Source: Ilex aquifolium (taxonomy: Eukaryota > Streptophyta > Magnoliopsida > Aquifoliales > Aquifoliaceae). From it: a stretch of DNA of 64,000 nt. The stretch spans positions 12,930,960 through 12,994,959 of the forward strand of contig OX637409.1 of assembly GCA_951799425.1 (NCBI GenBank). The letters run 5' to 3'. This document shows, one piece after another, positions 1 through 61,313 of this stretch. Numbering within the stretch: position 1 is the first letter of the stretch; the number at the start of each line of letters is the position of its first letter. The notes below the pieces were generated by a model. It had not been told where the DNA came from. It searched no databases and saw only the letters and a program-made list of their open reading frames with translations. The translations under genes and the position numbers were made by a program.

Positions 1-925
1 CTCACAAGGCACCAACCCCACTACGAGTGGTAGGAAAAATTCAAACCCGCACGGAGTAAGAAATGGATCTACCCACTCTACGATACCCGGTCAACGGCCA
101 CCCATGGTCATCCGAACATCCACAAGAGATACAATACCCAACCAATTTCATCAAGTCACAAACAAATCCAAAAATCCCCAAATTTCATATGGAGTATTAC
201 CATAGAACCATTTAAGAAAATATACAAGAGATCATCCACAATACCATTTTGTTATTCAATACAAAGTACTAAAGTTTTAAAAACAAGGACAAAGGAAGAA
301 TCAAGAGAAAAATCTATTTCTCTTGAAAACTAGGGTTTTTAGTCAAGAAAAGAGATTTAATAGCTATTCCACCATGGCATTGTCCAAAACATGGTAATAT
401 TTACAAGAATATCAAGAATCAAGGATTTCATAGCATACATATAGGATTTAGAGTCAAAAGAATACATATATATAAGCCCTAGCCTCAATGTAAGAGAATA
501 GGAAGAAACCCCTATCTTAAATCAAGAGTTCCAAGCAAAACCCAAGCTCTAGAGACTTCCTTCCTCCCTTTTCTTTTTCCTTTTATCTTCCCCTAGGTTT
601 CTAAGAGGTTTGGGGTGAGAGTGGAGTGAAAGAATAGAAGAAAATAGGGTGAAAAGGTGTTTTAAACTCAGCCCAATCCCGAATTTTACTGTTTTAAAAT
701 TTTTGATTTTTACCGACAGTACCGGTACGCTGTACCGATATGGTTTGCTCTCGGGACATTGGGGCACTGGTACGCTGTACCGGTACGGTTTGTCCGGATT
801 TACCTTTTTCACCTGTTTTTCATTTCCAATCCATTCCAAACCCTTCCAAAATCAACCCATTATACAATATATATTTGTATATCAAACATAGTTGATACAA
901 GTTCTATTACATGTGGGGGTTTACA
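1..925 (-). mobile_element. 3' LTR (partial) of chromovirus A
   Basis: This stretch matches 8777-9646 closely from end to end, so it is the second LTR of the same minus-strand element; its outer part lies beyond the left edge. Read on the minus strand it begins TGTAAACC at 925, directly after a purine tract, as expected for a 3' LTR. Differences from the 5' LTR are scattered substitutions plus about 58 bp extra around 729-786, within the palindrome cluster. Confidence 0.93.
719..786. repeat. GTACCGGTAC palindrome cluster in A 3' LTR
   Basis: Two exact GTACCGGTAC copies (719-728, 777-786) flank degenerate relatives at 732-741 and about 768-775. In element sense the cluster lies 140-205 bp inside the LTR start and about 50 bp before a TTTAAAAC box. 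The 5' LTR of the same element keeps only one copy. Confidence 0.9.
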
Positions 926-940
926 ATCCACCCCCCTTGA
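926..940 (-). other. Polypurine tract of chromovirus A
   Basis: On the minus strand the bases AAGGGGGGTGGAT directly precede the LTR start TGTAAACC. This is the expected site of plus-strand DNA priming. The pol reading frame ends at 967, just upstream. Confidence 0.85.
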
Positions 941-966
941 AGAAAGTTTCGTCCTCGAAACTTACC

Positions 967-2305
967 TCAGGTAGCGAACAAATGAGGGTACTTCTCTCGC
1001 ATCTCCAGCTCCGGTTCCCAAGTAGCTTCCTCCACCCCATGATGTTGCCACAAGACTTTCACCAGTTGGATGACTTTATTGCGAAGCACCTTCTCCTTGG
1101 TATCAAGAATCTTCACCGGTTGTTCTTCATATGTTGCTCCATCTTGAACTTCAATATCCTCTAAATCCACGACATGCGTTGTATCCGATTGACACTTTCT
1201 CAACATTGAAACATGGAACACGTCGTGTACGCCTGACAACTGAGCTGGTAACCGAAGTTGATACGCCACTTTGCCCATTGCTTTGATCACCTCAAATGGT
1301 CCGATGTACCTTGGAGCTAATTTCCCTTTCTTGCCAAATCTAAACACCCCCTTTTTGGGTGACACCTTGAGGAACACATAGTCCCCCTCTTGGAATTCCA
1401 AGGGTCTTCTTCTTCTATCCGCATAGCTTTTCTGTCTAATTTGAGCCGTGCATAGTCTTTCCCCGGATGAGTTGAATTTTCTCCGTAGTCTCCCGTACAA
1501 CCTCTGGCCCAAACAAACTACTTTCTCCAGCTTCCAACCAACAAGTCGGGGACCTACATGGTCTTCCATAAAATGCCTCATAAGGAGCCATTCCAATACT
1601 TGCCTGATAGTTGTTGTTATATGCGAACTCCATTAGCGGTAAATGATCACTCCAACTTCCCTTGAAGTCCAACATACAAGCTCGTAGCATGTCTTCCAAA
1701 ATTTGTATCACCCTCTTGGATTGGCCATCCGTTTGGGGATGAAAGGCGGTGCTAAAGTGTAACTCTGTCCCCATAGCTCGTTGTAGACTTTGCCAAAATT
1801 GCGCCATAAAATGAGAATCACGATCCGACACAATAGAGAGTGGAACTTCATGCAATCTAACAATCTCGCAAATATAAAGCTTGCTCAAGGTCTCTAAAGT
1901 GTTAGTGGTCTTCATACTCAAGAAATGAGCGGACTTGGTGAGTCTATCTACAATGACCCATATGGTATTATGCCCGCGTGAAGTTCGTGGAAAGCCAGAC
2001 ATGAAATCCATGGTGATGTGATCCCACTTCCACTCTGGGATAGGTACGGACTGTAGTAACCCTCCGGGTTTCTGATGCTTAATCTTCACCTGCTGACACA
2101 CCGCGCACTTTGCAATGTACTTAGCCACGTCTTGCTTCATCCCTTTCCACCAATATTGACGCTTCATGTCTCTATACATCTTAGTACTACCCGGATGTAT
2201 GGAGAATTTTGAACGATGACACTCACCCAACACTTCTTCCCTTACTTGGTCATTGTTTGGTACACATAGTCTTCCACGAAACTTTAACTCGTCATTGTGT
2301 ATGGA
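967..2305 (-). pseudogene. Integrase plus chromodomain of chromovirus A (broken)
   Basis: This is the C-terminal part of the Tekay-type polyprotein, which joins retrotransposon cDNA to host DNA. A zinc-binding HHCC region (CHRSKF...HPG, then CAVC) is followed by the catalytic core with MDFMSGFP and SDRDSHF. The third catalytic residue, normally Glu in GQSERVIQ, reads Lys (GQSKRVI), so the enzyme should be dead. A one-base frameshift near 1466 separates the core from a C-terminal domain containing KVLRNK and VEEATWEPE, which is the chromodomain pattern of Tekay/Del chromoviruses; in such elements it directs integration toward marked heterochromatin. The frame ends at 967. Upstream, a TGG-to-TAG stop at about 2306 divides it from RNase H. 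Not functional, but family assignment is firm. Confidence 0.93.
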
Positions 2306-2980
2306 CTAGTTCTCAACAACCTCATTCCTCTTCAATCTATCCCGAATAGTTTCCAACTCTGTGTCTAATCGTTGCGACTCTACAATCCGTTGTCGGAGAA
2401 TTAGTTGAGCTACAAGATTGAATAAGCATGGTCGATCCCCCTGCCTATCCACCAATAGATCAAAGTCCTCCAAAGCATCAATCATCTTCCACCTATTAAC
2501 AACAAGAACATTGATTTCTCCCCGAGACTTCCTACTCAGTGCATCTGCTACTACATTAGCCTTCCCCATATGGTAGTTGAGTGTGAAATCGTAATCTTCC
2601 AAATATTCGATCCACCTTCTTTGTCGGAGATTCAAATCTTTCTGTGTGAATATATACTTGAGACTCTTATGATCAGAAAACACTTGAAACTTTTCTCCAT
2701 ATAGGTAACGCCTCCACAACTTAAGAGCAAAGACCACATCGGCCAGCTCTAAGTCGTGAGTGGGATAGTTCTGCTCACGAACCTTTAGTTGTCTCGATCC
2801 ATAAGCGACTACCCTGCCTTCCTGCATTAGCACACATACTAACCCTCGTAACGAAGTATCGGTGTAAACATCGTATCCTTCCCCATTGCTAGGAATAATG
2901 AGGACAGGGGCTGTTGTCAACCTCCCCTTCAAGGTGCGAAAGGCTTGTTCACATGCTTGAGTCCACAAGAACCTTTCCCC
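2306..2980 (-). pseudogene. RNase H domain of chromovirus A
   Basis: This domain removes the RNA strand of the RNA/DNA hybrid during reverse transcription. Visible features are YTDTSLRG (first Asp), the [12 protein letters not shown] helix with the Glu, [11 protein letters not shown] (Asp) and [11 protein letters not shown] (last Asp), in the order typical of Ty3/gypsy RNase H. It begins after an in-frame stop (LTK then TAG, normally a CAG-type codon) and ends at another stop near 2306. Both stops look like transitions in otherwise intact coding sequence, so the element was recently coding and then decayed. Confidence 0.93.
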
Positions 2981-4269: not shown

Positions 4270-6465
4270 TGTAACGCCCCAAAAACCACCCTGGACGATA
4301 TTACATTCTAAAACCATTTACATAATGAGAGCACTAAGATAATCCATCAATAAGAAAATTTTTCCATTCATCATCCATAGAATTTGCAATATCATCCCAA
4401 AAGAATAAGCCCAGCTATGGCATTTACATCTCAAAGGATCAAACGTAACTTAGCAGCGGAATAACAAAAGAAAACTAAACTTCACATGATTTCAAAATAA
4501 ATTCTCAAGTCTAGTACAAAAGAAGCTATGTCTCTACAGGTCCACCTCGGGTGGGGCCTCCCAATACCCCGGCTCGTCAACTCCGAGATTCTCCTCTAGC
4601 TCCAAATCTGGAAATGTTTAACTGTAGGGGGTGAGCACGAGGCTCTGTAGCAAAATCTTCCCAAACTCATACAAGGTTTAAAAAAACATATATAAAATGG
4701 TCGGTCTCATTTTACAAATAGCATACATAATCTTTGAAGTAAAATAGGGACATTTTAGAATGGATCTCAAGTTTAAGTAGCAACAGTAATTTAAATGAAC
4801 AGTAAAAGAAACCAAGATCCAATACATATCCATTTCCCAAAATATAAACCATTTTCCCACAAGACCTTGTGTAATCCCATACTCCCACAAGTTCTTGTAG
4901 GAAACCATTTTCCACAATAATACAATAATCCCTAACTTGAATATTCCACAACCATATGTATATGTATCTCAAACATGATGTGAGGCAAACCCCATGAATC
5001 AACACATTGAGTAATATCTAGCCCACACACACCCACACAAATCTTATCAAAGATATCCATCCTTTAGGAAGGGCGTATGCCATACCAATGGCAGTGACGT
5101 ATCCAACCCAGGTATTAGTATACTAACCCTCTGACACGGCACCCGTGAGCAATAGCGGTTTAGTCTTACCAAAGCACTAACCCCACTACGAGTGGTAGGA
5201 AAATGCCAACCCACACGGAGCAAGCAACACGTCTACCCACTCTACGATATCTCGTCAAAGGCCACCCATGGTCATACCACACTCATAAGAGATACAATAC
5301 CAAACCCAATTTCACAATTTACAAGTATATCTTAAAAACCCCCAAATTTATCACATGACAATTTCAATAAACAATTACAAAAATACAAGAGATCACCACA
5401 ACATCATTTTATTACTCAACACAAAACACTATGGTTTCAAAATCAATAATAAAGGAAGAATTTAAGAAGAAAATCCATCACCCTCCAAAAACTAGGGTTT
5501 TGAAACACAAAAAGAGATCTCATGGGTATTCAACCCTAACTTTGTTAAAAACATGTAATCTTTGCCCAAAATACTAAGGGAGGATGATTTCATATCATAT
5601 ATATAACATTTAGAGCAAAACATTCATATATACATAAGCCCTAACCTCAATGTAAGAGAAAGAGAAGAAATCCCCTACCTTGGTGTTCTTGAAATCTAGG
5701 GCTTGAATCTTGAATCACCCTTAAATCTTGTGTTTTTCCCCTTTGATCTTGAGTTTCTCTCTTCCTTTCTTTCTCTCTAAGTGTTTCTAAAGTGTTTAGG
5801 GTGAGAGTGGAGTGAAGAATGGGGCAAATGAGGGCTTGAGGTGGTGTTTTAAACCCCAAAATCCTAACTTTTTAACTGTTCGGCGAGTGTCAGAGAAATC
5901 GTACCGGTACACGGTACCGGTACGGTTAAGCTACTGGAGTTGGGCGTACCGGTACGGTTTGATTGACAGATTTTTTCTCCGACTTCCAGTGAAGTTTTGA
6001 CCCATTTAGAGGTCGAATTGGAAAATTTTCATGAGATACACTTTTGTAGCCCTAGATGTCTAATATCTACTGTCAAAATTTAGGATCAATTGGACATCAG
6101 GATAAACAGTTATGGACAAAATACTAGAAGGTGTCCCAAATCCTTTTTACCCAAATTCTCTCTAAGTGTGTTTTCACTCCGGAATACTTCCTAGCTTCCA
6201 ATACACCCCATATTACCTCTCCCAATGTTTTTCGACCTTCCAGATTCAATGGAATCATTATTTTGACCTAAATGCATTTAGAAACTTACATAATCCCTCT
6301 TCTCAAGCTTACACACATTCGAAACTTAAACGTTACAATCCATTTGTCTCCCTAGTATTTATTCCTACTGTTACAATCTATTTAGTTTATTCTTACATCA
6401 TTGCTTATATTAGAATTACTAGAAAATTATATTACTATATTAATCTAAACATGTGGGGGTTTACA
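4270..6465 (-). mobile_element. Solo LTR 2 inside the protease of A
   Basis: A 2.2-kb LTR without any internal region. Ends on the plus strand are TGTAACGCCCC at 4270 and GGGTTTACA at 6465. The flanks are GCATA (4265-4269) and ACATA (6466-6470), a 5-bp target duplication with one mismatch. It is a relative of the A LTR and very similar to the LTRs at 15688-17947 and 58246-60576. A nested full element is ruled out because no gag or pol remains. Recombination between two LTRs is the usual origin. Confidence 0.92.
5901..5955. repeat. GTACCGGTAC cluster in solo LTR 2
   Basis: Three exact copies at 5901-5910, 5914-5923 and 5946-5955. The spacer contains AAGCTACTGGAGTT, whose reverse complement recurs in Athila LTR clusters near 53150. 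On the minus strand (element sense) the box GGTTTAAAACACC follows roughly 50 bp downstream. Confidence 0.92.
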
Positions 6466-6470
6466 ACATA

Positions 6471-7871: not shown

Positions 7872-9646
7872 TGTAACGCCCCAAAATCCCCCTTGGACGA
7901 CATCACTATCTAAAACCATTAACATCATAAGAGCAACTAATAAAATTCATAAACAGAGAAACTTTCATTTATCATCCATAATATCTACAACGTCAGCCAA
8001 AAGAATAGGCCAATCCATGACCATTACATTCAAAAGAATATGTCATTCATGGCAATTACACCCAAAAATCAACTATTATCTTGCAGCATAATAACAAAGA
8101 CATAAGACTTCACATTTTCTCAAAAAGAACTTCCTAGTCTAGGACATAAGAGAATGTAGCTCTAAACGTCCACCTCTGGATTCACGTTCCCATCTATGGG
8201 AGCTTCCCAATGTACCGGCTCATCCACTCCAAACTCCTCCTCTAGGCCATAATCTGAAAAGATGTTGTTTGTAGGGGGGGTGAGCACTCAGCTCTGTAGG
8301 AAAATCCTCCCAAACTTGAACAAGGTTTAGAAAACATATAAAACAAGTCGGTCTCATTTCACAATTATCATATATAACTTTTGAAAGAAAACAGTGACAA
8401 TTTATCCGATCTCAAGTTTAAGCAATATCAATGAAGTAAATGAAGAAGTAAAACCAATTTCCAAAACAAACAATTCCAACAAATCACTATAAACTATAGC
8501 CAACCATTGACACCATAAACCATAGCTAACCATTGGTACAATAAATCATAGTTCAGAATGTATTTCAAACCACAACTTGTATCTCAGGTATGATGTATGA
8601 TATCGCATGAATAAACGCATCGAGAATATCCTGGCCCACACACACACACCCAATCCTCTCAAGGATATACAACTTTAGGAAGGACGTATACCAACACATT
8701 GGCAGTGACGAATCCAACCCAGGAGTAGTATACTAACCCTCATCCTCGGCACCTGTGAGCGAATAGTGGTTTGGTCCTCACAAGGCACCAACCCCACTAC
8801 GAGTGGTAGGAAAAATTCAAACCTGCACGGAGTAAGAAACACAACTACCCACTCTATGATACCCGGTCAACGGCCACCCATGGTCATCCGAACATCAACA
8901 TGAGATACAATACCCAAACAATTTCCTCAAGTCACAAACAAATCCAAAAATCCCCAAATTTCATATGGAGTATTACCATAGAACCATTTAAGAAAATATA
9001 CAAGAGATCATCCACAATACAATTTTGTTATTCAATACAAAGTACTAAAGTTTTAAAAACAAGGACAAATGAAGAATCAAGAGAAAAATCTATTTCTCTT
9101 GAAAACTAGGGTTTTAAGTCAAGAAAAGAGATTTAATAGCTATTCCACTATAGCATTGTCCAAAACATGGTAATATTTACAAGAATATCAAGAATCAAGG
9201 ATTTCATAGCATACATATAGGATTTAGAGTCAAAAGAATACATATATATAAGCCCTAGCCTCAATGTAAGAGAATAGGAAGAAACCCCTACCTTAAATCA
9301 AGAGTTCCAAGCAAAACCCAAGCTCTAGAGACTTCCTTCCTCCCTTTTCTTTTTCATTTTATCTTCCCCTAGGGTTCTAAGAGGTTTGGGATGAGAGTGG
9401 AGTGAAAGAATAGAAGAAAATAAGGTGAAAAGGTGTTTTAAACTCAGCCGAATCCCGAATTTTACTGTTTTAAAATTTTTGATTTTTACTGACAGTACCG
9501 GTACGGTTTGTCCGAATTTGCCTTTTTCACCTGTTTTTCATTTCCAATCCATTCCAAACCCTTTCAAAATCAACCCAAACTTATACAACATACATTTGTA
9601 TATCAAACATAGTTGATACAAGTTCTATTACATGTGGAGGTTTACA
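7872..9646 (-). mobile_element. 5' LTR of chromovirus A
   Basis: A complete LTR of 1,775 bp. Element sense is minus: it starts TGTAAACC at 9646 and ends GGGGCGTTACA at 7872. The primer site follows immediately. The right flank (TACCC, 9647 on) is Athila C gag, so A inserted into C. No clear TATA box is present; TTTAAAAC near 9440 followed by a C/T-rich leader may serve as the core promoter. Confidence 0.94.
9495..9504. repeat. Single GTACCGGTAC in A 5' LTR
   Basis: Only one copy is present where the sister LTR has two exact and two degenerate ones. The sequence is consistent with loss of one repeat plus intervening DNA by recombination or slippage between direct repeats. Confidence 0.9.
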
Positions 9647-11311: not shown

Positions 11312-13117
11312 TGATTGATGAAAAACGTTGTTGTTTCCAACCCCTAAACATCACCATTTGACATGTGTATATGGCTTATGTGTGAAAGGGAGTGTCACTC
11401 TCCCTCGGGGTAATGCAAGAGATTAGGCAACAACGGATTGGTGGAAAATGGAATGAAGAAAATGTGAAATGAAATGCGGGTGTGTGAACAAAAGTGCTCC
11501 CAATCGCAAAGAGTCTTTTGTGGGTCGGTGTTTTACTTGGAAAAGTATTCCAAGGTCGTCTCCTCAGGGAAGGAAAGTTCAAGTTGTGTGAAGGTGATTT
11601 TGCAAAAGGTAAAGAAAGTGAAATCTTTTGTTTGAGTTTTTGTGATTGAAGTTTGTAAATGAAAATACAATAAAAAAAAATGTTGGCTAATCCAAAAGGT
11701 TCACTCCAATGGGAATGCCCAATCAACTCGAAACCTTCCTCCGAGGGTTTATAGATGAACGATTGATTCGTGGGAAGCTAGGGATAAGATGGGTTACTAT
11801 CTAAGCATAAACCGTGACTAGGCCTACGGAATATCAAAGACTCACCAACTTATCCACCCTCAACTCAGTCAAACCGAACCATCGTACACCGAGAGAGGAA
11901 ATAAAATGAGTTGAATTGGAAAATCCAAGAGGAGGTCTCTCTTGAATTAGCCAACTAAAAATCTAGCTACTCATGAAAGCAAGAAAGAAATGCATAATGT
12001 AAAGAGACATAATTGAAATGGAGAATGAAACTTAAATGAATGCAAGAAATCTTAAACTAAGAAGAAAAATATTCAATACCCATTTTAAAGCAAGAAATGA
12101 AGAAAACTTGGAAGCAATAATGGTGGATTGAAGAACATGTAACTAAACTTGAAATATACTTGAAATAAAGGAGATTACAATGCAAGAAATAAAGATTACA
12201 AGAGAACTACAACTTACTGCCATGAAATGAGTGAAGAAAATGCAAAAACATAAGCTTCTATTACACTATTCATCATCTTCTTCATTGAACTACTCCTAAG
12301 CTTAGGTAGCCACCCCCTGAAGAACTTGTGTAATGCTGAATATATGGAGAGTGAGCCTTCCAATTTCGTCCATGAGGCTCCCCCTAGCCTGTGTGCAGAC
12401 CTCCCATCAATAGGAGGCTGAATGGATGGGTGTTGCAGGCTAGGACAAGCCTCCCCCAGGCTACCCCTTCTCTCTCTCGTCCCCCTTAATGCCCAAGCCT
12501 TCAAAGTCTTCAAGTAGGGTGTAGGAGGCATGGTTGTAGGGATAAAATGTCAGGCTAGGTGTGGGCGAAGTGTAGGTGGGACCCCCCAAGCAAGTGGAGC
12601 ATGATTGCAGGCGATTCTGGGCTGTCAGGAGACAGTACCGGTACTGCATACCGGTACAGTTTCTCTGCTCCGGACCAGTCTTCATAGAATTGGAGTAACT
12701 TTTGATCTAACCGTCCGATTGAGCTGAAATTTTGAAACAACACAGAAGACATCTAGATCTACAACTTTCATTTTTTGAACTTGTTCAGATTCGAAGTGTA
12801 TCATGGTCAAAATGGAGGAATACCAAGGCTCTGTTTCCAGTTGGTGTGGCTGCTGGTGCTTTTGTTCCCAAACACCAATACCTCCTTGATTTCTTCACTT
12901 TTAAGCCTCCAAATCTTCATGTAATGTGTCCATGCCCTCACCACACACCCATCATAGTTGCAAGGTCCTAAAATCAATCATTTAAGCTATAAAAACTTGC
13001 AACATTGAAAATTCAACATTATTCATAAAATTGGCTAACACTAAGTACTTATATGCAAAAGTTGAGTTAAAATGAATGTAATGAGGCCTTCAAATATACA
13101 ATATTTTGTGCTCCTCA
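11312..13117 (-). mobile_element. Athila solo LTR in the RT of C
   Basis: A 1.8-kb LTR flanked by a perfect 5-bp target duplication ATGAG (11307-11311 and 13118-13122). On the minus strand it begins TGAGGAGCACAAAATATTG, the same start as the LTR of C itself (24383) in inverted orientation. No internal region remains. Excision of the LTR and one duplication restores the RT frame across VRDE/VLKLLD. Confidence 0.95.
12635..12656. repeat. GTACCGGTAC pair in Athila solo LTR
   Basis: One exact copy at 12635-12644 and a one-base variant (ATACCGGTAC) at about 12649-12658, about 460-480 bp from the LTR start in element sense. Confidence 0.85.
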
Positions 13118-15687: not shown

Positions 15688-17947
15688 TGTAAACCCCCAC
15701 ATGTTTAGATTAATATAGTAATTTAATTTTCTAGTAATTCTAATATAAGCAATGATGTAAGAATAAACTAAATAGATTGTAATAGTAGGAATATATACTA
15801 GGGAGACAAATGGATTGTAACGTTTAAGTTTCGAAGGTGTGTAAGCTTTAGAAGAGGGATTATGCAAGTTCTAAATGAATTTAGGTCAAAATAATGCTTC
15901 CATTGAATCCGGAAGGTCGAAAAACATTGGGAGAGGTAATATGTGGTGTATTGGAAGCTAGGAAGTATTCCGGAGTGAAAACACACTTAGAGAGAATTTG
16001 GGTAAAAAGGAGTTGGGACACCTTCTAGTATTTAGGTCATAAATTTTTATTGTGATCTCCAATGGATCTGAAATTTGGACAGTAGATAGTATACATCTAG
16101 GGCTACAAAAGTGTATATCATGAAAATTTTCCAATTCGACCTCTAAATGAGTCAAAACTGTACTGTAAGTCGGAGCAAAAATTTGTCAGTCAAACCGTAC
16201 CGGTACCGCGTACCGGTACGCCCAACTCCAGTAGCTTAACCATACCGGTACCGCGTACCGGTACGATTTCTCTGACACTCGCCGAACGGTTAAAAGTCAG
16301 GATTTTTGGGTTTAAAACACCACCTCAAGCCCTCATTTGCCCCATTCTTCACTCCACTCTCACCCTAAACACTTTAGAAACACAGAGAGAAAAAAAGGAA
16401 AAGAGAAACTCAAGATCAAAGGGGAAAAACACAAGATTTAAGGGTGATTCAAGATTCAAGCCCTAGATTTCAAGAACACCAAGGTAGGGGTTTTCTTCCA
16501 TTCTTGTTCATTGATTTAGGGTTAATAAATATGTATGTTTTGATTCTTAATGATATGTATTTGCTATGGCTTCATTGTTTCTTGGTTCTCTTGCAATTGT
16601 TAACATGTTTTACACAAAGTTAGGGTTGTATACCCATGAAATCCCTCTTTTTGGTTTGAAAAACCTTAGTTTTCAAGAGTGATGGGTTTTCCTCTTGAAC
16701 TCTTCCTTCATTCTTGATTTCAAAACCATAGTGTTTTGTGTTGAGTAATAAAATGATATTGTTGTGATCTCTTGCATTTTCCTAGTTGGTTATTGAAAAT
16801 GTCACATGCTTAATTTGGGGTTTTTAAGATATACTTGTAAATTGTGAAATTGGGTTTGGTATTGTATCTCTTATGAGTGTGGGATGACCATGGGTGACCT
16901 TTGACGAGATATCGTAGAGTGGGTAGACGTGTTGCTTGCTCCGTGTGGGTTGGCATTTTTCCTACCACTCATAGTGGGGTTAGTGCTTTGGTAAGACTAA
17001 ACCGCTATTGCTCACGGGTGCCGTGTCAGAGGGTTAGTATACTAATACCTGGGTTGGATACGTCACTGTCATTGGTATGACATACGCCCTTCCTAAAGGA
17101 TGGATATCTTTGATAAGAGTTGTGTGGGTGTGTGTGGGCTAGATATTACTCAATGTGTTGATTCATGGAGTTTGCCTCGCATCATGTTTGAGATACATAT
17201 ACATATGGTTGTGGAATATTCAAGTTATGGATTATTGTACTATTGTGGGAAAATGGTTTATATTTTGAAATTGATATGTATTGGATCTTGGTTTCTTTTA
17301 TTGTTCATTTCTAGTACTATTGCTACTTAAACTTGAGATCCGTTGTAAAATGTCCTTGTTTTACTTCAAAGATTATATATGCTATTTGTGAAATGAGACC
17401 GGCCATTTTATATGGTTTTATAAACCTTGTTCGAGTTTGGGAGGAATGTTGCTACAGAGCTTAGTGCTCACCCCCTACAAACAACATATTTCAGGTCTTT
17501 GTCTAGAGGAGGAGCTCGGAACTGACGAGCCGGGACATTGGGAAGCTCCCATAGAAGGGAATGTAGATCTCGAGGGAGACGCTTAGTGTTCTATTTTCTT
17601 TTGTGATAAACTAGGAAGTTCCTTTTGAGGCAATGTAAAGTCTAACATTATTTTTATGTTTCCGCTGCCAAGTGTAACTTAATTCTTTTGGGATGTAGAT
17701 GCCATTGTTTGGCATATTCTTTTGGATAATGTTGTAAGAATTTGTATGAATCAATGGACCCGGTGTGGTCAATGTAGTATAATTGCACAGGTTGTGTTTT
17801 GGGTAGAGCTCTCCGAACAAAGGAGACTCTGCCCGAATTTCGTTAAATTAAGGACCCCCGGTTATTTATGGATTTTTATTAGTTGCTCTCATGGTATAAA
17901 TGGTTTTATAATGTAATGCCGTCCAGGGTGGTATTTGGGGTGTTACA
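15688..17947 (+). mobile_element. Solo LTR 3 at the integrase end of C
   Basis: A 2.26-kb chromovirus-type LTR with ends TGTAAACCCCC and GGGGTGTTACA and a perfect 5-bp duplication CAAAG (15683-15687 and 17948-17952). It is the same subfamily as solo LTR 2 but lies in plus orientation. There is no internal region. Confidence 0.96.
16197..16264. repeat. GTACCGGTAC cluster in solo LTR 3
   Basis: Exact copies at 16197-16206, 16210-16219 and 16255-16264 plus a variant at about 16242-16251. The spacer AACTCCAGTAGCTTAACC matches solo LTR 2. A GGGTTTAAAACACC box follows at about 16308-16321. Confidence 0.92.
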
Positions 17948-42710: not shown

Positions 42711-43038
42711 GACATACCAGTACTCTTCTGCTCCGGACCAATTTTCGTAAAATTATCATAACTTTGGATCCAACCGACCGATTGAGCTTAAATTTTGACA
42801 CAATATAGAAGACATCCAGGTCTACAACTTTTATGTTTTGAACGTTTTCATATTGGAAGTGGATCATGGTCAAAAATGGGGAACACCTAGGTACTGCAAC
42901 CAAATGGTGTGGGTGCTGGTGCCTTTGTTACCAAGCACCCATACCTCATTGATTTCTTTCACTTTTAAGCCTCCAAATCCTCAAGTAATGTGTCCATGCC
43001 TTCACCACACATCCACACTTAGTTGCAAGGTTCTAAAA

Positions 43039-50869: not shown

Positions 50870-51020
50870 GGCAAAGAGGAGGGGGTAAGGGAGTGTGAAG
50901 GAATAATGCAAGGTCTTCAAAGTCCAAGTGAGTGCCCCAATGTCCGGATAGAAAATCAACCACTTTGCAGCCTGTCTGGGGACAACGTTTGAACATTGTC
51001 TCTTGTCTTTGCTTGATGGA

Positions 51021-51235
51021 CGTTCGAACGCTAGATGGAGTTTGAACCTCCTACTCAAGTGGCCTATGTTCTTCTATGAGAGTAACTGCATCACACCATG
51101 TACCATTGCCCTTCCACTCAACAGCCTGGTCTTCAATAATTTAGGACAAAGTTCGAACGTGGTACTCAAGTACCTCTGTGTTTTTCGTCTTAGTTGCAAC
51201 ACGCCATATATCATCATCTCAGCGGCGTTCGAACG
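51021..51235. repeat. CGTTCGAACG copies in H LTR
   Basis: Exact copies at 51021-51030 and 51226-51235, plus decayed ones (GTTTGAACATT near 50989, AGTTCGAACGT near 51150). Fewer than in F, at matching positions. Confidence 0.88.
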
Positions 51236-51421
51236 TCCATGCCTTGTTTCACAACTTTTCCAATTTTCTTCCAGAGCATGCGATTGCTGCATGAAAGTTT
51301 GATATTCATTGCCTTTGGGCCCTTGTACAATTTATGTCCTGAAATGTCATCATTGAAACTCTATCAAAGCATAATTAGTCTTAAAAAGACATAGTATGAT
51401 GCTCATTTTAACTACTAATCA

Positions 51422-51786: not shown

Positions 51787-53479
51787 TGCTTGCTCAAAAA
51801 CCTTGTTATTTCCTAACCTCTAAATTCTATCCCTCAAAATGTGTAATGTATGGATAAGGGGAGTGTCACTCTCCCTTGGGATAGTGTGAAAAGAAAGGGC
51901 AAGAGGAAAGGAAAATGGGATGGTGGAAATATGAAATGTGGATGCACAAAACTATGTGTGTGTGTGTACAAAAGTGCTCCCCAAGCGCAAGGAGACTTTC
52001 GCGGGCCGTGTTTTAGTTGGTGGTATTCCAAGGTCGTTTCCACGGGGAAGGAAGTAAACCAAGGGGAAGGTGATTTCAGGTAAGAGAAAATGTAAAATCT
52101 TTTGGTTGTTGAGAGTTGTTTGGTAGTGTATGTTGATGAAAATCAAATGAAAAACAAATGTTGGTAAAGCCAAGAGGTCACTCCAATAGGAATGCCATCT
52201 CAACTCGAATCCCTCCTACGGTAGAGCATGAATGAACGATTGATTCATGGGAAGTTGAGGATACTAAGGGTGAGTATCTAAGCATAAACCGTGACTAGGC
52301 CTACGGAATATCAAAGACTCACCAATTTATCCACCCACAACCCAGTCAAACCGAACCATTGATTTCTAGAAAGGGAGGAGAATGAGTTGACATGGCATAC
52401 CCAAGAGGAGATTCCCCTTGGTTTTACCAACTAAAGGATTTAGCTACTTATGCTTGTAATGAAGTTGACTATGTAAGAAAAATGCAATGCAAGAGAGTAA
52501 GTTCTTGAATAGCTAAAATGCAAGTAGACAGAGATCAGAAAAGGGTGCATTTAAGACCCATTTTAGCTAAGAAAATAATGAACCTTGTTGCATTAATGGT
52601 GAGAAGTCAAGAGAGCATTAAACTAACAATGAACTTCAAGAAAAACAACATTAATGGTATTCAAATGAAGCTTGAAATGTTCTTACAACAAATTACAAGA
52701 CAATGCAGAGAAGAAAATGCAGAAATCTGAAATTTATCTCTCTAGAACACTATTCATCATCTTCTCCAGACTTTTCTCCCTCTATATCTATCTATTTTCT
52801 GCTACCAGCTGAATGCCTCTCTCCCTTGGACTTGGCTTCCAAAAACGTGCATGGAGAGATTCCCTAGTCTCCAGAAAATGACTTCCATCAGTAGGGGTGC
52901 AGTAGTACTGGGCTGGAAGAAGGGTTGTAGAGTTTGTCTGCACACCCAGCTCTTCTTCTCTTATCTCTCATCATTTATCAACAAGACTCCAACTTGCAAT
53001 CATAGGTGTAGAAAGGGGTCACTAGCATTGTAGGTGCGTCAGGGGAGCAGGGGATGTCTGTTGGTGGGTCCTTCAAGTCAGCAATCATGAGTTGCAAGGA
53101 AGTTGGACTGATCAGGCAAGGCGTACCAGTACGCGTACCGGTACGGCGAACTCCAGTAGCTTGAGCGTACCGGTACACGTACCAGTACGGTTTACTCCAG
53201 CAACCTTAGCGTATCGGTATGCGTACCGGTACGGTTTGGCTGGTTTCTTGATTTTCTGGTTTCCTCCTCCACTGAGCTATCTACAAGCTGTCTTCTCATC
53301 TTCATTTGCCTCACATGATTGGGGAAGGCCTTAAGAGGTCTCATTTGGCACCATTCAACTGCAAACACCAATATCATCGTTAAGAGTTCAATTAAACTAA
53401 CTCCCATCATTTAAATCTCCAAAAACAATTAAAAAAAGATGATTAGCACATCAAAATATACAAATTTTTGTGCTAATCA
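51787..53479 (-). mobile_element. 3' LTR of Athila I
   Basis: 1.69 kb, from TGATTAGCACAAAAATTTG (minus sense, 53479) to about 51787 (TGCTTGCTCAAAAACC). A polypurine tract (minus AAGTTGGGGGGTG) touches its right end, so it is the 3' LTR of a minus-strand element that extends right. The left flank is GTAGG; the other flank is outside the window. Confidence 0.9.
53123..53232. repeat. GTACCGGTAC cluster in I LTR, unit 1
   Basis: Exact copies at 53135-53144, 53167-53176 and 53223-53232, with variants GTACCAGTAC at 53123 and about 53180 and GTATCGGTAT near 53213. Spacers are GAACTCCAGTAGCTTGAGC and TTTACTCCAGCAACCTTAGC. Confidence 0.92.
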
Positions 53480-53767: not shown

Positions 53768-55081
53768 CTATAAACCACTACATATCATCCTAATCATCAT
53801 CAAGCCATCATCCTCCTCGGACTCTTCACCTTCATTATACTCCTCACCCTCCCCCGATTCTTCAGTTTCTGCATCATCATCCTCCTCGTCCTCCTCGACT
53901 ACTGTAGGGGCAGAGGGGGCAGAAGGAGAAGGAGCAGTGGCCGGAGCTGGTCTAGTGGGCACTTCTGGGATGGGTCTCCCAGGGAAGGTATGTAAAAATA
54001 GCTCTTGCATCATAGCCTCCATTCCTAGCACAGTAGCCTCAATCCCATGCACTGTAGTCTCTAGTGCATCGAGGCGCTGAGGGACTGAATGGGGAGGTGC
54101 TGCAACAGATGGCCCAGCAGATGAAGATTCCCCGGGGGCCTCAGAACCAGTAGCCATGTTCTTGGCTCTCTTTGCTCGACTCATTGCTTTCCTTTTCTTT
54201 TTAGTGGTCCTACTAATGGCTCCAAACTCAGGTGGGGTTACCAAGTCCCCGAATGGCAGTTTAATCATGGGCTTCTGCAATTCAGCAAAATTTTTCATTT
54301 CCTGCCAAATAAGAAAGGCAAAATCAACGGCCTTCCTAGAAACGACTGCATCCAAAAGGGTCAGCTTCTCTATGTTTGGCTTCTTTTCAGCACCCCTTGG
54401 CATAAGATTGCAGTGGAGGAGCTTGTTAAGCAATCCATAAGTGGGCTTGAGTCTCCCACTTTGCACTGTCCCTTTGAAGTCTCCAGGCTCTTCATACATC
54501 AACTCAACCAACTCAGAAATTTTCTTGGCTCTGGTGATGTTGTGGGGATAGACAAGCGTAGACTCCGGTGGCCTCTCGTACCCTCCCAAGAGTGTGGCAA
54601 TGACATCCGGGGTCACCACAAACACCTTGCCACGGACATTGGTTTTTAAGATTTCCACACCATCCACCTCAGACACCTAGAGCATCTGGTAAAATTCCCT
54701 ACATATCGATAGATTGTACCCCTCAACCGGCTCAAACCAAAACTTCATACCATGTGCTTCAATGATTTTTATGGCCTCGTTCCTAGGGGTGAGAGAGATG
54801 GAGTCCAGGTACCTTTCACAAGTCACTCTTTTCTCCTGGATAATTCGATCCCTAGCCTTATTTTTTGCCTTCTTTCTCTGCTCATTCCTATCCCCACTCG
54901 ACCATTCTCCACTTCTTTTACGACCACTTGAGCCTTCAGGTGGAAGGGATTTGTATCCCGTCCTCTTGGTGCGGGCCATGCATAGCAACAATGCCCCCAT
55001 CATGAGAAAGGTACAAAGGGCGAATAGGAGACTCTCAATTGAGTCCATGGTCCCTTGGAAACACCCTAGAGAGCGAGCCAT
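53768..55081 (-). pseudogene. Env-position ORF of Athila I, copy 1
   Basis: Homologue of the 22720-24062 ORF, better preserved. The start MARSLGCFQG at 55081 is preferred to the upstream Met at 55144 because it matches C. Then come a hydrophobic segment (FALCTFLMMGALLLCMA), the basic RTKRTG...RKRSGEW region, VTCERYLDSISL, FWFEPVEGYNLSICREFY, the YPHNITRAKKISELVELMYE block, LLNKLLHCNLMPRGAEKKPN, LPFGDLV, a Ser/Pro linker, PQRLDALETTVHGI and an acidic tail. Defects: a TAG at about 54677-54679 in YQML/VSEVDG, a 48-bp in-frame deletion after LPFGDLVT relative to copy 2, and a 2-bp loss near 53800 that alters the last residues. Function unknown. Confidence 0.88.
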
Positions 55082-55350
55082 TTGAGAGATGTGAAAAAGT
55101 TTTGAGAATTGGAGAGAGAAAAGGGTTTGGGGAATTTTCGGCAATTAGGGTTTCACAAGGTTGGTTTCCAGTCAATCAAAGAACAAGGAAGAGGATTGGA
55201 GAGATTAAAGGGGCTTGGTGTGATTGGAAGCTTAAGGGTTGATTTCGGGTGAGAGAAAGGAGTGAAGGGGGGCTGTATTTTAGGAGGGAAATGAGGATGT
55301 TTTAAAACAAATCGATTAAAAGCCCTAAATCTTGGCTTCCCAGGAAAAGC

Positions 55351-55452
55351 GTACCGGTACGACGAACTCCAGTGGCAAAAGCGTACCGGTATGCGTATCA
55401 GTACGGTTTGCTCCAGTAGCCTTAGCGTACCGGTATGCGTAGTGGTACGGTT
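55351..55452. repeat. Palindrome cluster upstream of I env-position ORF, unit 1
   Basis: One exact copy at 55351-55360 and decayed ones at about 55383, 55395, 55427 and 55439. It sits 270-370 bp before the ATG (minus sense). TTTTAAAACATCC follows about 45 bp downstream, then a C/T-rich leader containing CTTCACTCCTTTCTCTCACC. Confidence 0.88.
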
Positions 55453-56204
55453 TGGCTGTCTCCCTGAAAATTCCTGCTGAGCAGCCCTTTCACTACTCCC
55501 TTTCATTTTAGGACCTCCCCTACACATTCTAACACTATTTTCATAACCTCTACTCTACCCCAAAATGTACTCCACTTATGAACCACAATCCGAACCATCA
55601 TGCCCAAATTATTACTGAAATTGCAAAGTGATTTAAACTTTTAAAGCATTCAAAGTATAAGGAATGGATTTCTATTCTTAACCATCAAAATAAACACCCA
55701 AAATGCTAGTCATATAATGAATAACAAAGAAATTCCTAATTCTTTTCAAATATCAAAAAGTTGAGCCATATTCCCTCATTCTTGCAAGCATGGAGCTATT
55801 TGACAGATTTCTCAAATGATTGAACTAAGTATACATGAGCCACACCATAGTCTTAGATACTAGTCTAAGGTATGCACCTACAAATTTATTTTCAACTCGA
55901 GTGTGTGTGAAGTTTAACAATCAATTTGAGCACTTACACAACGAAATTCACATTCGAATAGCCAGACAACTTCAGTTTCGATGCAAAACTCACCAAGGGT
56001 CACTCTAAAACAATGAAATACACTCAAGTTATCCTGGTATGCATTCCATGTGTACATGTGACATAGAATCTTGTGTTCAAAACAAAGTGTGCTCACATGT
56101 AATCCAAAAATGAAGTTCAGATATGAAAAGGAGCGACCTGGGCATAGTCTTATGAACAGAATGCTAGGGCATTAGCTAGTAAGACTTGACTCATTTTCAA
56201 GCTA
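55453..56204 (-). other. Athila I spacer, unit 1
   Basis: Inverted spacer sequence related to 21620-22330 of C (for example the CTCGAGTGTGTGTGAAG and GCATAGTCTTATGA segments). I see no gene in it. Confidence 0.75.
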
Positions 56205-56957
56205 ATGCAGTGAAGAAAATGCAAAAATCTGAAATTTATCTCTTTAGAACACTATTCATCATCTTCTCCAGACTTTTCTCTCTCTATATCTATCTATTTT
56301 CTACTACCAGCTGAATGCCTCTCTCCCTTGGACTTGGCTTCCAAAAACGTGCATGGAGAGATCCCCTAGTCTCCAGAAAATGACTTCCATCAGTAGGGGT
56401 GCAGTAGTACTGGGCTGGAAGAAGGTTTGCAGAGTTTGTCTGCACACCCAGCTCTTCTTCTCTTCTCTCTCCTCATTTATCAACAAGACTCCAACTTGCA
56501 ATCATAGGTGTAGAAAGGGGTCACTAGCATTGTAGGTGCGTCAGGGGAGCAGGGGATGTCTGTTGGTGGGTCCCTCAAGTCAGCAATCATAAGTTGCAGG
56601 GCTGTTGGACTGATCAGGCAAGGCGTACCGGTACGGCGAACTCCAGTGGCTTGAGCGTACCGGTACACGTACCGGTAGGATTTACTCCAGTAGCCTTAGC
56701 GTACCGGTACGGTTTGACTGGTTTCTTAATTTTCTGGTTTCCTCCTCCACTGAGCTATCCACAAGTTGTCTTCTCATCTTCATTTGCCTCACATGATTGG
56801 GGAAGGCCTTAAGAGGTCTCATTTGGCACCATTCAACTGCAAACACCAATATCATCGTTAAGAGTTCAATTAAACTAACTCCCATCATTTAAATCTCCAA
56901 AAACAATTAAAAAGAGATGATTAGCACATCAAAATATACAAAGTTTTGTGCTAATCA
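56205..56957 (-). mobile_element. Partial Athila I LTR, unit 2
   Basis: Copy of 52706-53479; about 920 bp of the LTR's 3' side are missing because the duplication breakpoint lies within it. The polypurine tract follows at 56958. Confidence 0.9.
56625..56710. repeat. GTACCGGTAC cluster in I LTR, unit 2
   Basis: Exact copies at 56625-56634, 56657-56666 and 56701-56710, and a variant GTACCGGTAG near 56671. Compared with unit 1 it has one palindrome fewer at its left and right ends, though flanks are nearly identical. Confidence 0.92.
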
Positions 56958-59842
56958 CACCCCCCAACTTAGGTTTTGCTAGTCCCTTAGCTAAAGTTTA
57001 TTTTCAATCACAAAACAGTAAGTATAATGCACACTTAATCCATCTAGCTAACCATTCATTCAATCAATTAAAAAGCATAAATCATAATGCAATTTCAAAA
57101 TAACATAGACAAGATTAGATCCGAAATTGTGGTATTTTCATTAATGTGTTCTGAAGTTGGAGTACATAACGTAGGACAACAAAAGAGACAAAATAGTCTA
57201 CGACTCCATTCCATCCAATTCAACCCTAAAAGAAAAAGATACAAACTATAAACCACTACATATCATCCTAATCATCATCAGAGCCATCATCCTCCTCGGA
57301 CTCTTCACCTTCATTATACTCCTCACCCTCCCCCGATTCTTCAGTTTCTCCATCATCATCCTCCTCGTCCTCCTCGACTAATGTAGGGGCAGTGGGGGCA
57401 GAAGCAGAAGGAGCAGTGGTTGGAGCTGGTCTAGTGGGCACTTCTGGGATGGGTGTCCCAGGGAAGGTATGTAAAAACAGCTCTTGCATCATAGCCTCCA
57501 TTCCTAGCATAGTAGCCTCGATCCCATGCACTGTAGTCTCTAGTGCATCGAGGCGCTGAGGGACTGAATGGGGAGGTGCTGCAACAGATGGCCCAGCAGA
57601 TGAAGATGCCCCGGGGGCCTCAGAACCAGCAGCCATGTTCTTGGCTCTCTTTGCTCGACTCATTGCTTTCCTTTTCTTTTTACTGGTCCTGGTAATGGCT
57701 CCAAACTCAGGCGGGGTAATCTTGTCGAATGCATAGCCCTTAACCTTGAATTGCATGCACATCCGGGTTACCAAGTCCCCGAATGGCAGTTTAATCATGG
57801 GCTTCTGCAATTCAGCAAAATTTTTCATTTCCTGCCAAATAAGAAGGGCAAAATCAACGGCCTTCCCAGAAACGACCGCATCTAAGAGGGTCAGCTTCTC
57901 TATGTTTGGCTTCTTTTCAGCACCCCTTGGCATAAGGTTGCAGTGGAGGAGCTTGTTAAGCAATCCATAAGTGCGCTTGAGTCTCCCACTTTGCACTGTC
58001 CCTTTGAAGTCTCCAGGCTCTTCATACATCAACTCAACCAACTCAGAAATTTTCTTGGCTCTCGTGATGTTGTGGGGATAGACAAGAGTAGACTCCGGTG
58101 GCCTCTCGTACCCTCCCAAGTGTGTGGCAATGACATCCGGGGTCACCACAAACACCTTGCCACGGACGTTGGTTTTTAAGATTTCCACACCATCCACCTT
58201 AGACACCCGGAGCATCTGGTAAAATTCCCTACATATCGATAGATTTGTAACACCCCAAAAACCACCCTGGACGGCAATACATTCTAAAACCATTTATATA
58301 ATGAGAGCACTAAGATAATCCATCAATAAGAAAATTTTTCCATTCATCATCCATAGAATTTTCAATATCATCCCAAAAGAATAAGCCAAGCTATGGCCCA
58401 CAATATCAAAAGAATATGCCACACTATGACATTTACATCTCAAGGATCAAACGTAACTTAGCAGCGGAATAACAAAAGAAGACTAAACTTCACATGATTT
58501 CAAAATAAATTCTCAAGTCTAGTACAAAAGAAGCTATGTCTCTACAGGTCCACCTCGGGATCTAGATTCCCCTCGGGTGGGGCCTCCCAATACCCCGGCT
58601 CGTCAACTCCGAGATTCTCCTCTAGCACCAAATCTGAAAATGTTTAACTGTAGGGGGTGAGCACGAAACTCTGTAGCAAAATCTTCCCAAACTCATACAA
58701 GGTTTAGAAAAATAAATATAAAATGGTCGGTCTCATTTTACAAATAGCATACACAATCTTTGAAGTAAAACAGGGACATTTTAGAATGGATCTCAAGTTT
58801 AAGTAGCAACAGTAATTTAAATGAACAGTAAAAGAAGTCAAGATCCAATACATATCCATTTCCCAAAATATAAACCATTTTTCCCACAAGACCTTGTGGA
58901 ATCTCATACTCCCACAAGTGCTTGTAGGTAACCATTTTCCACAATAATTCAATAATCCATCCATATGTATATGTATCTCAAACATGATGTAAGGCACACC
59001 CCATGAATCAACACATTGAGTAATATCTAGCCCACACACACCCACACAAATCTTATCAAAGATATCCATCCTTTAGGAAGGGCGTATGCCACACCAATGG
59101 CAGTGACGTATCCAACTCAGGTATTAGTATACTAACCCTCTGACACGGCACCCGTGAGCAATAGCGGTTTAGTCTTACCAAAGCACTAACCCCACTACGA
59201 GTGGTAGAAACAATGCCAACCCACACGGAGCAAGCAACACGTCTACCCACTCTACGATATCTCGTCAAAGGCCACCCATGGTCATCCCACACTCATAAGA
59301 GATACAATACCAAACCCAATTTCACAATTTACAAGTATATCTTAAAAACCCCCAAATTTATCACATGACCATTTCAATAAACCATTACAAAAATACAAGA
59401 GATCACCACAACATCATTTTATTACTCAACACATAGCACTATGGTTTTAAAATCAATAATAAAGGAAGAATTTAAGAAGAAAATTCATCCTCTCCAAAAA
59501 CTAGGGTTTTGAAACACAAAAAGAGATTTCATGGGTATTCAACCCTAACTTTGTTAAAAACATGTAATCTTTGCCCAAAAGACTAAGAGAGGATGATTTC
59601 ATATCATATATATAACATTTAGAGCAAAACATACATATATACATACGCCCTAATCTCAATGTAAGAGAAAGAGAAGAAATCCCCTACCTTCTTCTTCCTT
59701 AGTGTTCTTGAAAAACTTGAAGTTTTGATCCTCTTCAATGTGTAAATCCTCCCTTGATCTTGTGTTTTCCCCTTCTTTTCTCTTCTCTAAGTCTTCCTAG
59801 GGTTAGAAATTTTGAAATGAGACAAAGAGAGGCGTCCTTATG

Positions 59843-59850
59843 TATTTATA
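59843..59850 (-). promoter_or_regulatory. TATA box of solo LTR 4
   Basis: The minus strand reads CACTATAAATACATAAGG, about 55 bp downstream of the nearest CGTTCGAACG copy. Confidence 0.8.
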
Positions 59851-59903
59851 GTGGAAGAAATGGCCTCATGTGCGTGATTCTGAAGTTCAGAATACGTAAC
59901 TCA

Positions 59904-60069
59904 CGTTCGAACGTCATTGGCGTTCGAACGGTCGTTGCTCCCAGTACTTTTGTTTTTCCATCAGAGAAGAGTACTGGAACGCACTTACGTTCGAACTTTT
60001 ATTCACGTTCGAACGTCGATTCACGTTCGAACGTCGATTCACGTTCAAACGTCGAGTCACGTTCGAACG
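59904..60069. repeat. CGTTCGAACG cluster in solo LTR 4
   Basis: Exact copies at 59904-59913, 59921-59930, 60006-60015, 60024-60033 and 60060-60069, plus variants at about 59989 and 60042. The middle copies recur every 18 bp with the spacer TCGATTCA. This replaces the GTACCGGTAC cluster of the related solo LTRs 2 and 3. Confidence 0.93.
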
Positions 60070-61216
60070 GAATTCCTGTTTTTGCTGAAACTTCCAGTGA
60101 AGTGTTGGCCTATTTGGACATTGCTTTGGAAAATTTTCGTGAGATACACTTTTGTAGCCCTAGATGTCTAATATCTACTGTAAAAATTTCAGATCCATTG
60201 GAGATCACAATAAAAAGTTATGGCAAAAATACTAGGCAGTGTCCCAACTCCTTTTTATCCAAATTCTCTCCAAGTGTGTTTTTTACTCCGGAATACTTCC
60301 TAGCTTCCAATACACTCCATATTACCTCTCTCAATGTTTTTCGACCTTCCGGATTCAATGGAGAACTTATTTCGACCTAAAAATATTTAGAAACTTCCAT
60401 AATCCATCTTCTCAAGTTTACACACCTTCGAAACTTCAACTTTCCAATTCATTCCTAAGCCAACTAAATCCATCCCAAACCTCTCCAACACATATTTCTA
60501 CACATATCCACATTTTTACAACAATTATTTACTATATATCTATATACATATATAAAAGAAAATGCGGGGTGTTACAAGATTGTACCCCTCAACCGGCTCA
60601 AACCAAAACTTCATACCATGTGCTTCAATAATTTTTATGGCCTCGTTCCTAGGGGTGAGAGAGATGGAGTTCAGGTACCTTTCACAAGTCACCTCTTTCT
60701 CCTGGATCAGTCGATCCCTAGCCTCATTTTTTGCCTTCTTTCTCTGCTCATTCCTATCCCCACTCGACCCTTCTCCACTTCTTTTACGACCACTTCAGCC
60801 TTCGGGTGGAGGGGATTTGTGTCCCGTCGTCTTGGTGCGGGCCATGCATAGCAACAGTGCCCCCATCATGAGAAAAGTACAAAGGGCAAAGAGGAGACTC
60901 TCAATTGAGTCCATGGTCCCTTGGAAACACCCTAGAGAGCGAGCCATTTGAGAGATTTGAAAAAGTTTTGAGAATTGGAGAGAGAACAGGGTTTGGGGAA
61001 TTTTCGGCAATTAGGGTTTCACAAGGTTGGTTTCCACTCAATCAAAGAACAAGGAAGAGGATTTGAGAGATTAAAGGGGCTTGGTGTGATTGGAAGCTTA
61101 AGGGTTGATTTCGGGTGAGAGAGAGGAGTGAAGGGGGCTGTATTTTAGGAGGGAAATGAGGATGTTTTAAAACAAATCGATTAAAAGCCCTAAATCTTGG
61201 CTTCCCAGGAAAAGCA

Positions 61217-61313
61217 TACTGGTACGCGTACCGGTACGGCGAACTCCAGTGGCAAAAGCGTACCGGTACGCGTATCGGTACGGTTTGCTCCAGTAGCCTT
61301 AGCGTACCGGTAC
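61217..61313. repeat. Palindrome cluster upstream of I env-position ORF, unit 2
   Basis: Exact copies at 61228-61237, 61260-61269 and 61304-61313, variants at about 61216 and 61272. It differs from unit 1 in copy number at both edges. TTTTAAAACATCC follows at about 61160-61175 in minus sense. Confidence 0.9.

Follow-up and report, generated by a model that had tools for sequence, protein, structure and literature searches.

CpG-centred palindrome clusters as putative promoter cassettes in chromovirus and Athila-like retrotransposons of Ilex aquifolium

Why do retrotransposons of different lineages carry the same short palindromes, each centred on a CpG, in their long terminal repeats (LTRs)? 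The question is raised by a 64,000-base stretch of the Ilex aquifolium genome (hereafter the window; part of contig C19 in a genome of 800 Mb and 103 contigs), where a first-pass annotation had recorded clusters of such words in chromovirus and Athila LTRs and had suggested a dimeric binding factor. The clusters are probably enhancer-like cassettes of LTR retrotransposons, and their palindromes putative sites of a homodimeric transcription factor, most likely one of the host. This reading builds on the observed anatomy, enrichment and symmetry of the cassettes, their linker, their placement in a family here called fam2, and the likeness of cassette edges across lineages. In the proposed mechanism each cassette would offer several symmetric sites of 10-14 bp at preferred spacings, often around a linker of about 20 bp. 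Chromovirus cassettes would act from the LTR directly upstream of the core promoter, and Athila-like ones from the LTR and from upstream of a gene with a PF20167 domain, so that the factor would drive both LTR and internal promoters. Elements would gain and lose sites, cassettes would pass between elements by recombination, probably through template switching, and the palindrome of a whole cassette would at times be replaced, as if for another factor. If so, retrotransposon lineages of one genome share and trade a single promoter switch, and tens of thousands of near-identical dimer sites are open to direct testing. It would also become possible to test whether activators come with plant transposons themselves and whether a host factor controls several lineages of transposable elements at once.

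Enrichment, symmetry and decay of the palindromes

Exact copies of GTACCGGTAC, CGTTCGAACG and CCTACCGGTAGG number 28, 13 and 3 in the window, with the counts and positions first annotated, and the annotated bound of fewer than 0.1 GTACCGGTAC expected per 64 kb was borne out by a Markov-1 expectation of 0.009. A bias toward CpG dyads was evident from 100 Markov simulations of the window: it contains 50 CpG-centred 10-bp palindromes, where the simulations averaged 6.1 and never exceeded 12, and GC-, AT- and TA-centred palindromes of the same length fell inside the simulated range. A scan that used no chosen word, and paired identical 8-bp palindromes having at least two G or C and neighbours 8-100 bp apart, yielded 39 pairs in the window, 36 of them CG-centred. 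Applied to a systematic sample of 200 kb (20 pieces of 10 kb each from contigs C1-C7, one of them with 1,563 N), the same scan found 12 CG-centred pairs out of 15, five of these 12 coming from a single GATCGATC cluster. Simulated sequence yielded 0.1 and 0.2 CG-centred pairs for window and sample, respectively. The sample held four GTACCGGTAC, all in a single cluster, two CTACCGGTAG and two CGTTCGAACG. The GATCGATC words form a further CpG-centred palindrome cluster, six of them lying inside 190 bp (L010:1955-2137).

Genome-wide counts were compared with the same word read backwards and with a Markov-1 expectation from the 200-kb sample. Exact GTACCGGTAC occurred 51,910 times (backward control 907; 567 times expectation), CGTTCGAACG 32,359 times (278; 639 times) and CTACCGGTAG 22,728 times (353; 192 times). 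The fourth word, CGTCCGGACG, occurred 8,992 times (134; 429 times); it had first been noticed in a nested piece of locus L065, in a display that marked CG-centred palindromes only, and was counted genome-wide afterwards. That all CpG palindromes are common in this genome was ruled out by a comparison palindrome, GATCCGGATC, found 278 times against 267 expected (backward control 440). This palindrome and the five backward words, six comparison words in all, occurred at 0.7-1.7 times expectation.

The frequent layout of a cassette is a palindrome, 2-3 bp, a second palindrome, a linker of about 20 bp, and one or more further palindromes. With related copies counted, 42 of 123 start-to-start spacings for GTACCGGTAC measured 13 bp and 35 measured 31-32 bp; for CGTTCGAACG, 25 of 34 measured 17-18 bp. 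The linker motif TWCTGG/CCAGWA was present in 10 of 19 representatives under a two-mismatch mask and in 13 of 19 under a one-mismatch mask, against 1.1-1.3 expected. Some linkers, such as CTTCTGGAGT, differ at three positions from the palindrome CTTCCGGAAG, which itself occurs as a further symmetric variant in the cassettes of the D type described below; linkers may thus be weak or relic sites, judging by this resemblance.

The dyad symmetry that had been annotated extends past the core. Among 230 distinct contexts of TACCGGTA, related copies included, flanking bases were complementary in 195 at ±1 (shuffle maximum 162), in 119 at ±2 (the same as the shuffle maximum, 119) and in 108 at ±3 (maximum 94), with no excess from ±4 on. 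The complementary pairs at ±3 were of near-equal kinds (C-G 37, G-C 36, A-T 33). Flank symmetry was in excess to ±5 for CCGG cores and to ±2 for TTCGAA cores (64 against a maximum of 62 at ±2), and the same shuffle test found no excess for the control palindromes AAGCTT, GGATCC, TTGCAA and GTTAAC.

These results bear on the alternative that the words are a neutral by-product, spread by slippage and element copy number alone. The number of sites does differ between close copies, and the two fam2 queries returned first-look candidates in the thousands (5221 and 4267), both as slippage and copy number would have it. The alternative is nevertheless very unlikely, given that four distinct symmetric words, all CpG-centred, are spread over different elements, that the distance to the promoter is constant in fam2 (see below), that the equally CpG-centred GATCCGGATC is not enriched, and that flank complementarity involves several kinds of base pair.

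Decay of the sites was followed in single-base neighbours of GTACCGGTAC lying within 60 bp of intact sites. Changes of the C-to-T type accounted for 57 of 70 such variants; among these, position 1 was affected in 28, the dyad CpG in 19 and the outer C of CCGG in 10. A C preceded 21 of the 27 position-1 variants checked, against 167 of 308 intact contexts. To judge from the sequence, the pattern is that expected of methylated DNA. Genome-wide, the variants GTACCAGTAC/GTACTGGTAC numbered 6,310 (backward control 2,810) beside the intact GTACCGGTAC sites. In fam2, 9 of 97 dyads had decayed, against 17 of 111 neighbouring CpGs (two dyads with other changes excluded), and these figures left the idea that the arrays are protected from methylation decay unsupported. 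The words lose C to T at about the pace of CpGs nearby, and the methylation sensitivity that the first-pass annotation considered for the factor is still conjecture.

Placement in two lineages of Ty3/gypsy elements

The clusters were reported to lie in different lineages, and protein profiles agree. One carrier is a probable chromovirus, here element A, accompanied in the window by copies of fam2 and by further clusters:

1-9646, minus strand: chromovirus A, with reverse transcriptase (RT), RNase H and integrase with SH3 domain
707..798, minus strand: GTACCGGTAC cluster in one LTR of chromovirus A
9495..9504, minus strand: lone GTACCGGTAC in the other LTR of chromovirus A
5889..5967, minus strand: GTACCGGTAC cassette with linker, fam2 copy 4267-6465
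16185..16276, plus strand: GTACCGGTAC cassette with linker, fam2 copy 15688-17737
59892..60081, minus strand: CGTTCGAACG cassette, fam2 copy 58243-60453
34027..34362, minus strand (strand inferred): CGTTCGAACG clusters in an LTR-like context, partly similar to 51224-51421
43300..43435, minus strand (strand inferred): GTACCGGTAC cassette of seven sites (six exact), insertion 43039-45474
50974..51247, minus strand (strand inferred): CGTTCGAACG sites

Element A matched SH3_Tf2-1 (E 6.4e-28) and Chromo (E 8.5e-4, below the Chromo cut-off), and is classed as a chromovirus on its domain content, the Chromo match being sub-threshold. Family fam2 is tied to it by DNA likeness alone (71-74% on the internal side, 72-78% in the LTR).

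The second set of carriers comprises Athila-like elements, among them D, F and H:

22330..22441, plus strand: array1 of element D, an internal cassette of CTACCGGTAG type ahead of the PF20167 open reading frame (ORF)
22914..23558, plus strand: PF20167 accessory ORF of element D, first open piece (E 3.2e-13)
24383..24396, plus strand: 3' LTR start of element D, immediately following the polypurine tract (PPT)
24620..24776, plus strand: LTR CTACCGGTAG-type cassette (array2) of element D
53111..53244, minus strand: LTR GTACCGGTAC cassette (array2) of element F, LTR start 53479
53771..54676, minus strand: PF20167 accessory ORF of element F (E 6.5e-14)
55339..55460, minus strand: internal GTACCGGTAC cassette (array1) of element F
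56613..56722, minus strand: LTR GTACCGGTAC cassette of element H, LTR start 56957
57271..58293, minus strand: PF20167 accessory ORF of element H, 341 amino acids (E 1.9e-19)
61204..61325, minus strand: internal GTACCGGTAC cassette of element H
12623..12669, minus strand: GTACCGGTAC doublet in an LTR with Athila-like start 13117 and end at about 11312
42644..42735, minus strand: GTACCGGTAC cassette in an LTR with Athila-like start 45621, interrupted by 43039-45474

In elements D, F and H a polypurine tract is followed by the LTR start (24383, 53479 and 56957), with the PF20167 ORF ahead of it. A related element outside the window (L096, GTAC type) has one frame for a protease and one for RT, RNase H and integrase, the latter with no match to a chromodomain, at a distance of about 2 kb ahead of its internal cassette (four of its 11 ORFs of at least 85 amino acids scanned). 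Its RT is 37% identical to that of chromovirus A. The pol domain order in both, RVT_1, RNase H, integrase, is that of Ty3/gypsy elements, so the hosts are not Sireviruses, which belong to Ty1/copia. The Athila combination was thus found: a Ty3/gypsy pol that shows no chromodomain, taken from one GTAC-type element, and a sense ORF placed after pol and ahead of the PPT. Within 6 kb upstream of a D-type element (L095), four of five ORFs of at least 85 amino acids were scanned and gave no Pfam match. The ATHILA ORF-1 profile PF03078 matched nowhere, and since 14 control genomes were equally silent, that result carries no weight either way. On the PPT-LTR junction, the PF20167 ORF and the pol of L096, elements D, F and H are described as Athila-like.

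The first-pass annotation had placed the clusters in LTRs, but those at 22330-22441, 55339-55460 and 61204-61325 are internal. They lie about 2 kb before the PPT/3' LTR junction, or about 4.2 kb in element H, because a fam2 copy of about 2.2 kb sits in between. An internal cassette upstream of the PF20167 ORF is a feature of Athila-like elements that had gone unrecorded. A 29-base PPT-LTR pattern found 831 + 804 sites at up to three mismatches; among 10 GTAC-type elements sampled from 100 such sites listed, eight had an internal cassette and all 10 an LTR cassette. The D-type set (10 elements among 39 non-self matches) had an internal cassette in 10 of 10. Its second cassette, assigned by position except in the three elements where the PPT-LTR pattern was visible, was of D type in seven, of GTAC type in one (L074) and not found in two (L065 and L072). 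L065 contains the nested piece with CGTCCGGACG mentioned above.

The clusters were said usually to lie 45-150 bp upstream of a promoter box. A box close downstream is present in element A, in fam2 and at the internal clusters of F and H, and the link fails for the Athila-like LTR clusters. A TATA, TTTAAAAC or TTTTAAAA box was found downstream of the clusters in both LTRs of A, in the three fam2 copies of the window and internally in F and H, with the first box 8-42 bp from the cluster edge. For the clusters near 34 and 43 kb both strands were tried, and the minus strand alone gave a box, at 83 and 61 bp; the sole box of the cluster near 51 kb is TATATAT at 105 bp. The fixed place before the core promoter was seen across 40 fam2 copies, fetched as 20 of the 39 non-self matches for each of two queries. 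A TTTAAAACAC or TATAAATAC box was present in 38 of these, at 48-79 bp downstream of the point where the last core begins. Core and box were paired as GTAC with TTTAAAACAC in 30 copies, GTAC with TATAAATAC in two, CGTTCG with TATAAATAC in six and CGTTCG with neither in two. In three fam2 copies (L045, L056 and L038) foreign sequence starts in or soon after the cassette, possibly as nested insertions.

Probable exchange of cassettes and the nature of the proposed factor

The first-pass annotation had left it open whether the element families converged on the sites or exchanged them. Exchange is the better fit. The 14 bases flanking fam2 and Athila-like cassettes on either side were compared where usable (30 of 40 and 18 of 24 cassettes, some edges lying inside a cassette whose outer site had decayed). 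The left edges shared 6.31 matches against 3.91 permuted (0 of 2000 permutations reaching the observed value) and the right edges 5.90 against 3.60 (1 of 2000). One cassette type also stands before different boxes. Because the edges are alike across lineages, passage of the cassette between lineages is favoured, on this comparison, over pure convergence, which was judged less likely; functional edges could also converge.

An apparent replacement of the palindrome within a cassette is seen in fam2. Two copies in the window align on both sides (86% and 90%), with middles that consist of GTACCGGTAC and a TTTAAAAC box in one and of CGTTCGAACG and a TATAAATA box in the other; the cassette at 59892..60081 falls in a non-aligning segment, with sequence on either side that does align with the 4267-6465 copy. 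In L019, inspected by eye, a CTACCGGTAG and a GTACCGGTAC cassette, built around the same linker word, occupy two LTR-like stretches whose flanks are similar. A third group of carriers may exist: at C1:2959030-2963600 two CGTCCGGACG clusters whose sites are equally spaced stand 4,458 bp from each other, and a 2-kb piece taken from the interval (L097) encodes a Ty1/copia pol frame. At least one copia element therefore seems to carry its own LTR palindrome, and the phenomenon extends beyond the original finding.

The left and right cassette edges are inverted repeats of one another, which raises the possibility that structure rather than binding matters, the inverted-repeat array forming an RNA (or cruciform DNA) hairpin that serves as small-RNA source, silencing target or RNA signal. 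When eight cassettes were folded as RNA, all did better than the dinucleotide-shuffle mean (z -2.0 to -7.6) and seven beat all 200 shuffles; in some folds, for example that of 16185-16276, the linker loops out from a stem in which the two sides are paired. A structural role has been proposed for palindromic Sirevirus LTR regions in maize (Bousios 2016, as cited in PMC10760457). A hairpin, however, requires inverted arms and not loop-less units each symmetric on a CpG, and the internal cassette of element F folds weakly (z -2.0, with 8 of 200 shuffles folding equally well). The RNA of LTR elements represents U3 at its 3' end only, and a U3 cassette is expected in RNA there alone. A structural explanation is a serious alternative on the folding results, if for these reasons an unlikely one.

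The internal cassettes point to a further alternative, a factor encoded by the elements themselves. By analogy with VANC of VANDAL transposons or the transactivator of foamy viruses, the PF20167 protein would bind the LTR and internal cassettes of its own element and counter silencing or activate transcription, with the chromovirus sites hitch-hiking; this is distinctly unlikely. In the form in which the protein would be a sequence-specific homodimeric cassette factor, protein and palindrome type would change together, and chromoviruses, perhaps also copia elements, would have taken up cassettes to use the activator of another element; we regard this version as equally doubtful. Both cassette positions, the LTR and the stretch ahead of the PF20167 ORF, are indeed occupied in 19 elements (D, F and H of the window included), and the palindrome type was equal in 18 of them. 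Likeness of internal and LTR cassettes was tested on a slightly different 19 elements (L065 in, L067 out). For the 10 GTAC-type elements it was 0.669 within elements, against a permuted mean of 0.503 (maximum 0.660; 0 of 5000). For the nine D-group elements, two of whose second arrays were not of D type, there was no excess (0.292 against 0.321 permuted). Concordance of type could, moreover, be explained by descent.

The protein itself (57271-58293) combines basic patches with a strongly acidic tail (D or E at 24 of the last 45 positions), features that suggest a nuclear protein. Hydropathy above 1.6 is the usual mark for a membrane segment. The maximum 19-residue hydropathy of five PF20167 sequences was 1.27-2.04 (1.66 for the 57271-58293 copy), four of them exceeding that value, so a membrane segment is possible. 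The same palindromes are also carried by chromovirus LTRs, and none of four scanned ORFs of element A matched PF20167 (its ORFs of 155 and 186 amino acids lay outside the scan). The accessory ORF of sunflower Athila elements is likewise sense, at the 3' end, with PF20167 and predicted to be nuclear (PMC11728184).

A host homodimeric factor is thus preferred, and several observations weigh against it. Five Athila-like LTR clusters and the internal cluster of D have no core promoter box within 400 bp. The linker motif was picked after the sequences had been read, and a looser three-mismatch mask, which masks linkers too, lowered TWCTGG to five of 19 against 0.9 expected. Shuffles leave shared ancestry in, and many copies are related, which inflates the symmetry tests; the variety of pair types was for this reason weighed above the counts. 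Dyad decay was not clearly below that of neighbouring CpGs, and hence no clear protection or strong per-site constraint is seen. To these are added the strong folding of the cassettes as RNA and the mixture of palindrome types in one of 19 elements (L074).

Relation to known systems and other features of the window

Short repeated binding boxes, comparable in arrangement to the cassettes, are present in U3 of Tnt1 and Tto1, and foamy viruses have sites common to the LTR and an internal promoter, together with a transactivator of their own.

The closest precedent is found in Sireviruses, Ty1/copia elements whose LTRs hold palindromic boxes at high copy number shortly before TATA, with more of them upstream of env (Bousios et al. 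2010, PMC2829016). That paper discusses an internal env promoter, calls the boxes Sirevirus-specific as against classic retrotransposons, and gives a CGG-CCG core in all but one of 13 elements. The holly cassettes are similar in having a CpG-rich palindrome at high LTR copy and an array1 upstream of the PF20167 ORF, like the boxes 5' of env. They differ in their hosts, which are Ty3/gypsy chromoviruses and Athila-like elements. Most Sirevirus elements have their own RM-box word (Table 3 of that paper), whereas here one word is common to different lineages; the units here lack intervening bases, which is true of some Sirevirus boxes only; and the linker is kept while the palindrome differs set-wise. 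As to the core, TACCGGTA words hold CCG and CGG overlapping in reverse order, and CGTTCGAACG has neither. The Sirevirus feature of boxes shortly upstream of a promoter is found in A, in fam2 and internally in F and H, and is absent from the Athila-like LTR clusters and the internal cluster of D. Judged by arrangement, the cassettes work like the RM-box region without membership in Sireviruses, the new points being Ty3/gypsy hosts, shared words and set-wise difference of the palindrome. The Sirevirus precedent (PMC2829016), the internal cassettes, the linker and the set-wise difference were all found after the first-pass annotation, which mentions none of them.

Three other systems are partly comparable. 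VANDAL/VANC transposons (PMC5735166) similarly combine dense short noncoding motifs with an accessory gene, and the motifs of an array vary in number and change in concert; the text makes no use of the word 'palindrome', and a VANC-type binding protein is hypothetical here. The sunflower Athila text (PMC11728184) mentions no palindromic cassettes, with zero occurrences of 'palindrom'. Recombinant Athila elements of Arabidopsis (PMC2410132) exchange modules between distant elements, as proposed here; that exchange is within Athila, and here like cassettes occur in a chromovirus and in Athila-like elements. Among the papers listed as containing the string GTACCGGTAC, the titles concerned other matters, and GTTCGAAC or ACCGGT plus context words gave a bacterial topic only. 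The titles and abstract starts of the papers listed, most subscription papers being outside this scope, held no report of such cassettes in chromoviruses or Athila/Ty3-gypsy elements.

Two further features of the window were noted. At 27732-28925 on the minus strand, ORFs with UEV and Vps23 core domains indicate a TSG101/ELC-like host gene or gene piece. The region 19380-20901 contains repeated units of about 100 bp and a duplicated block of about 0.8 kb.

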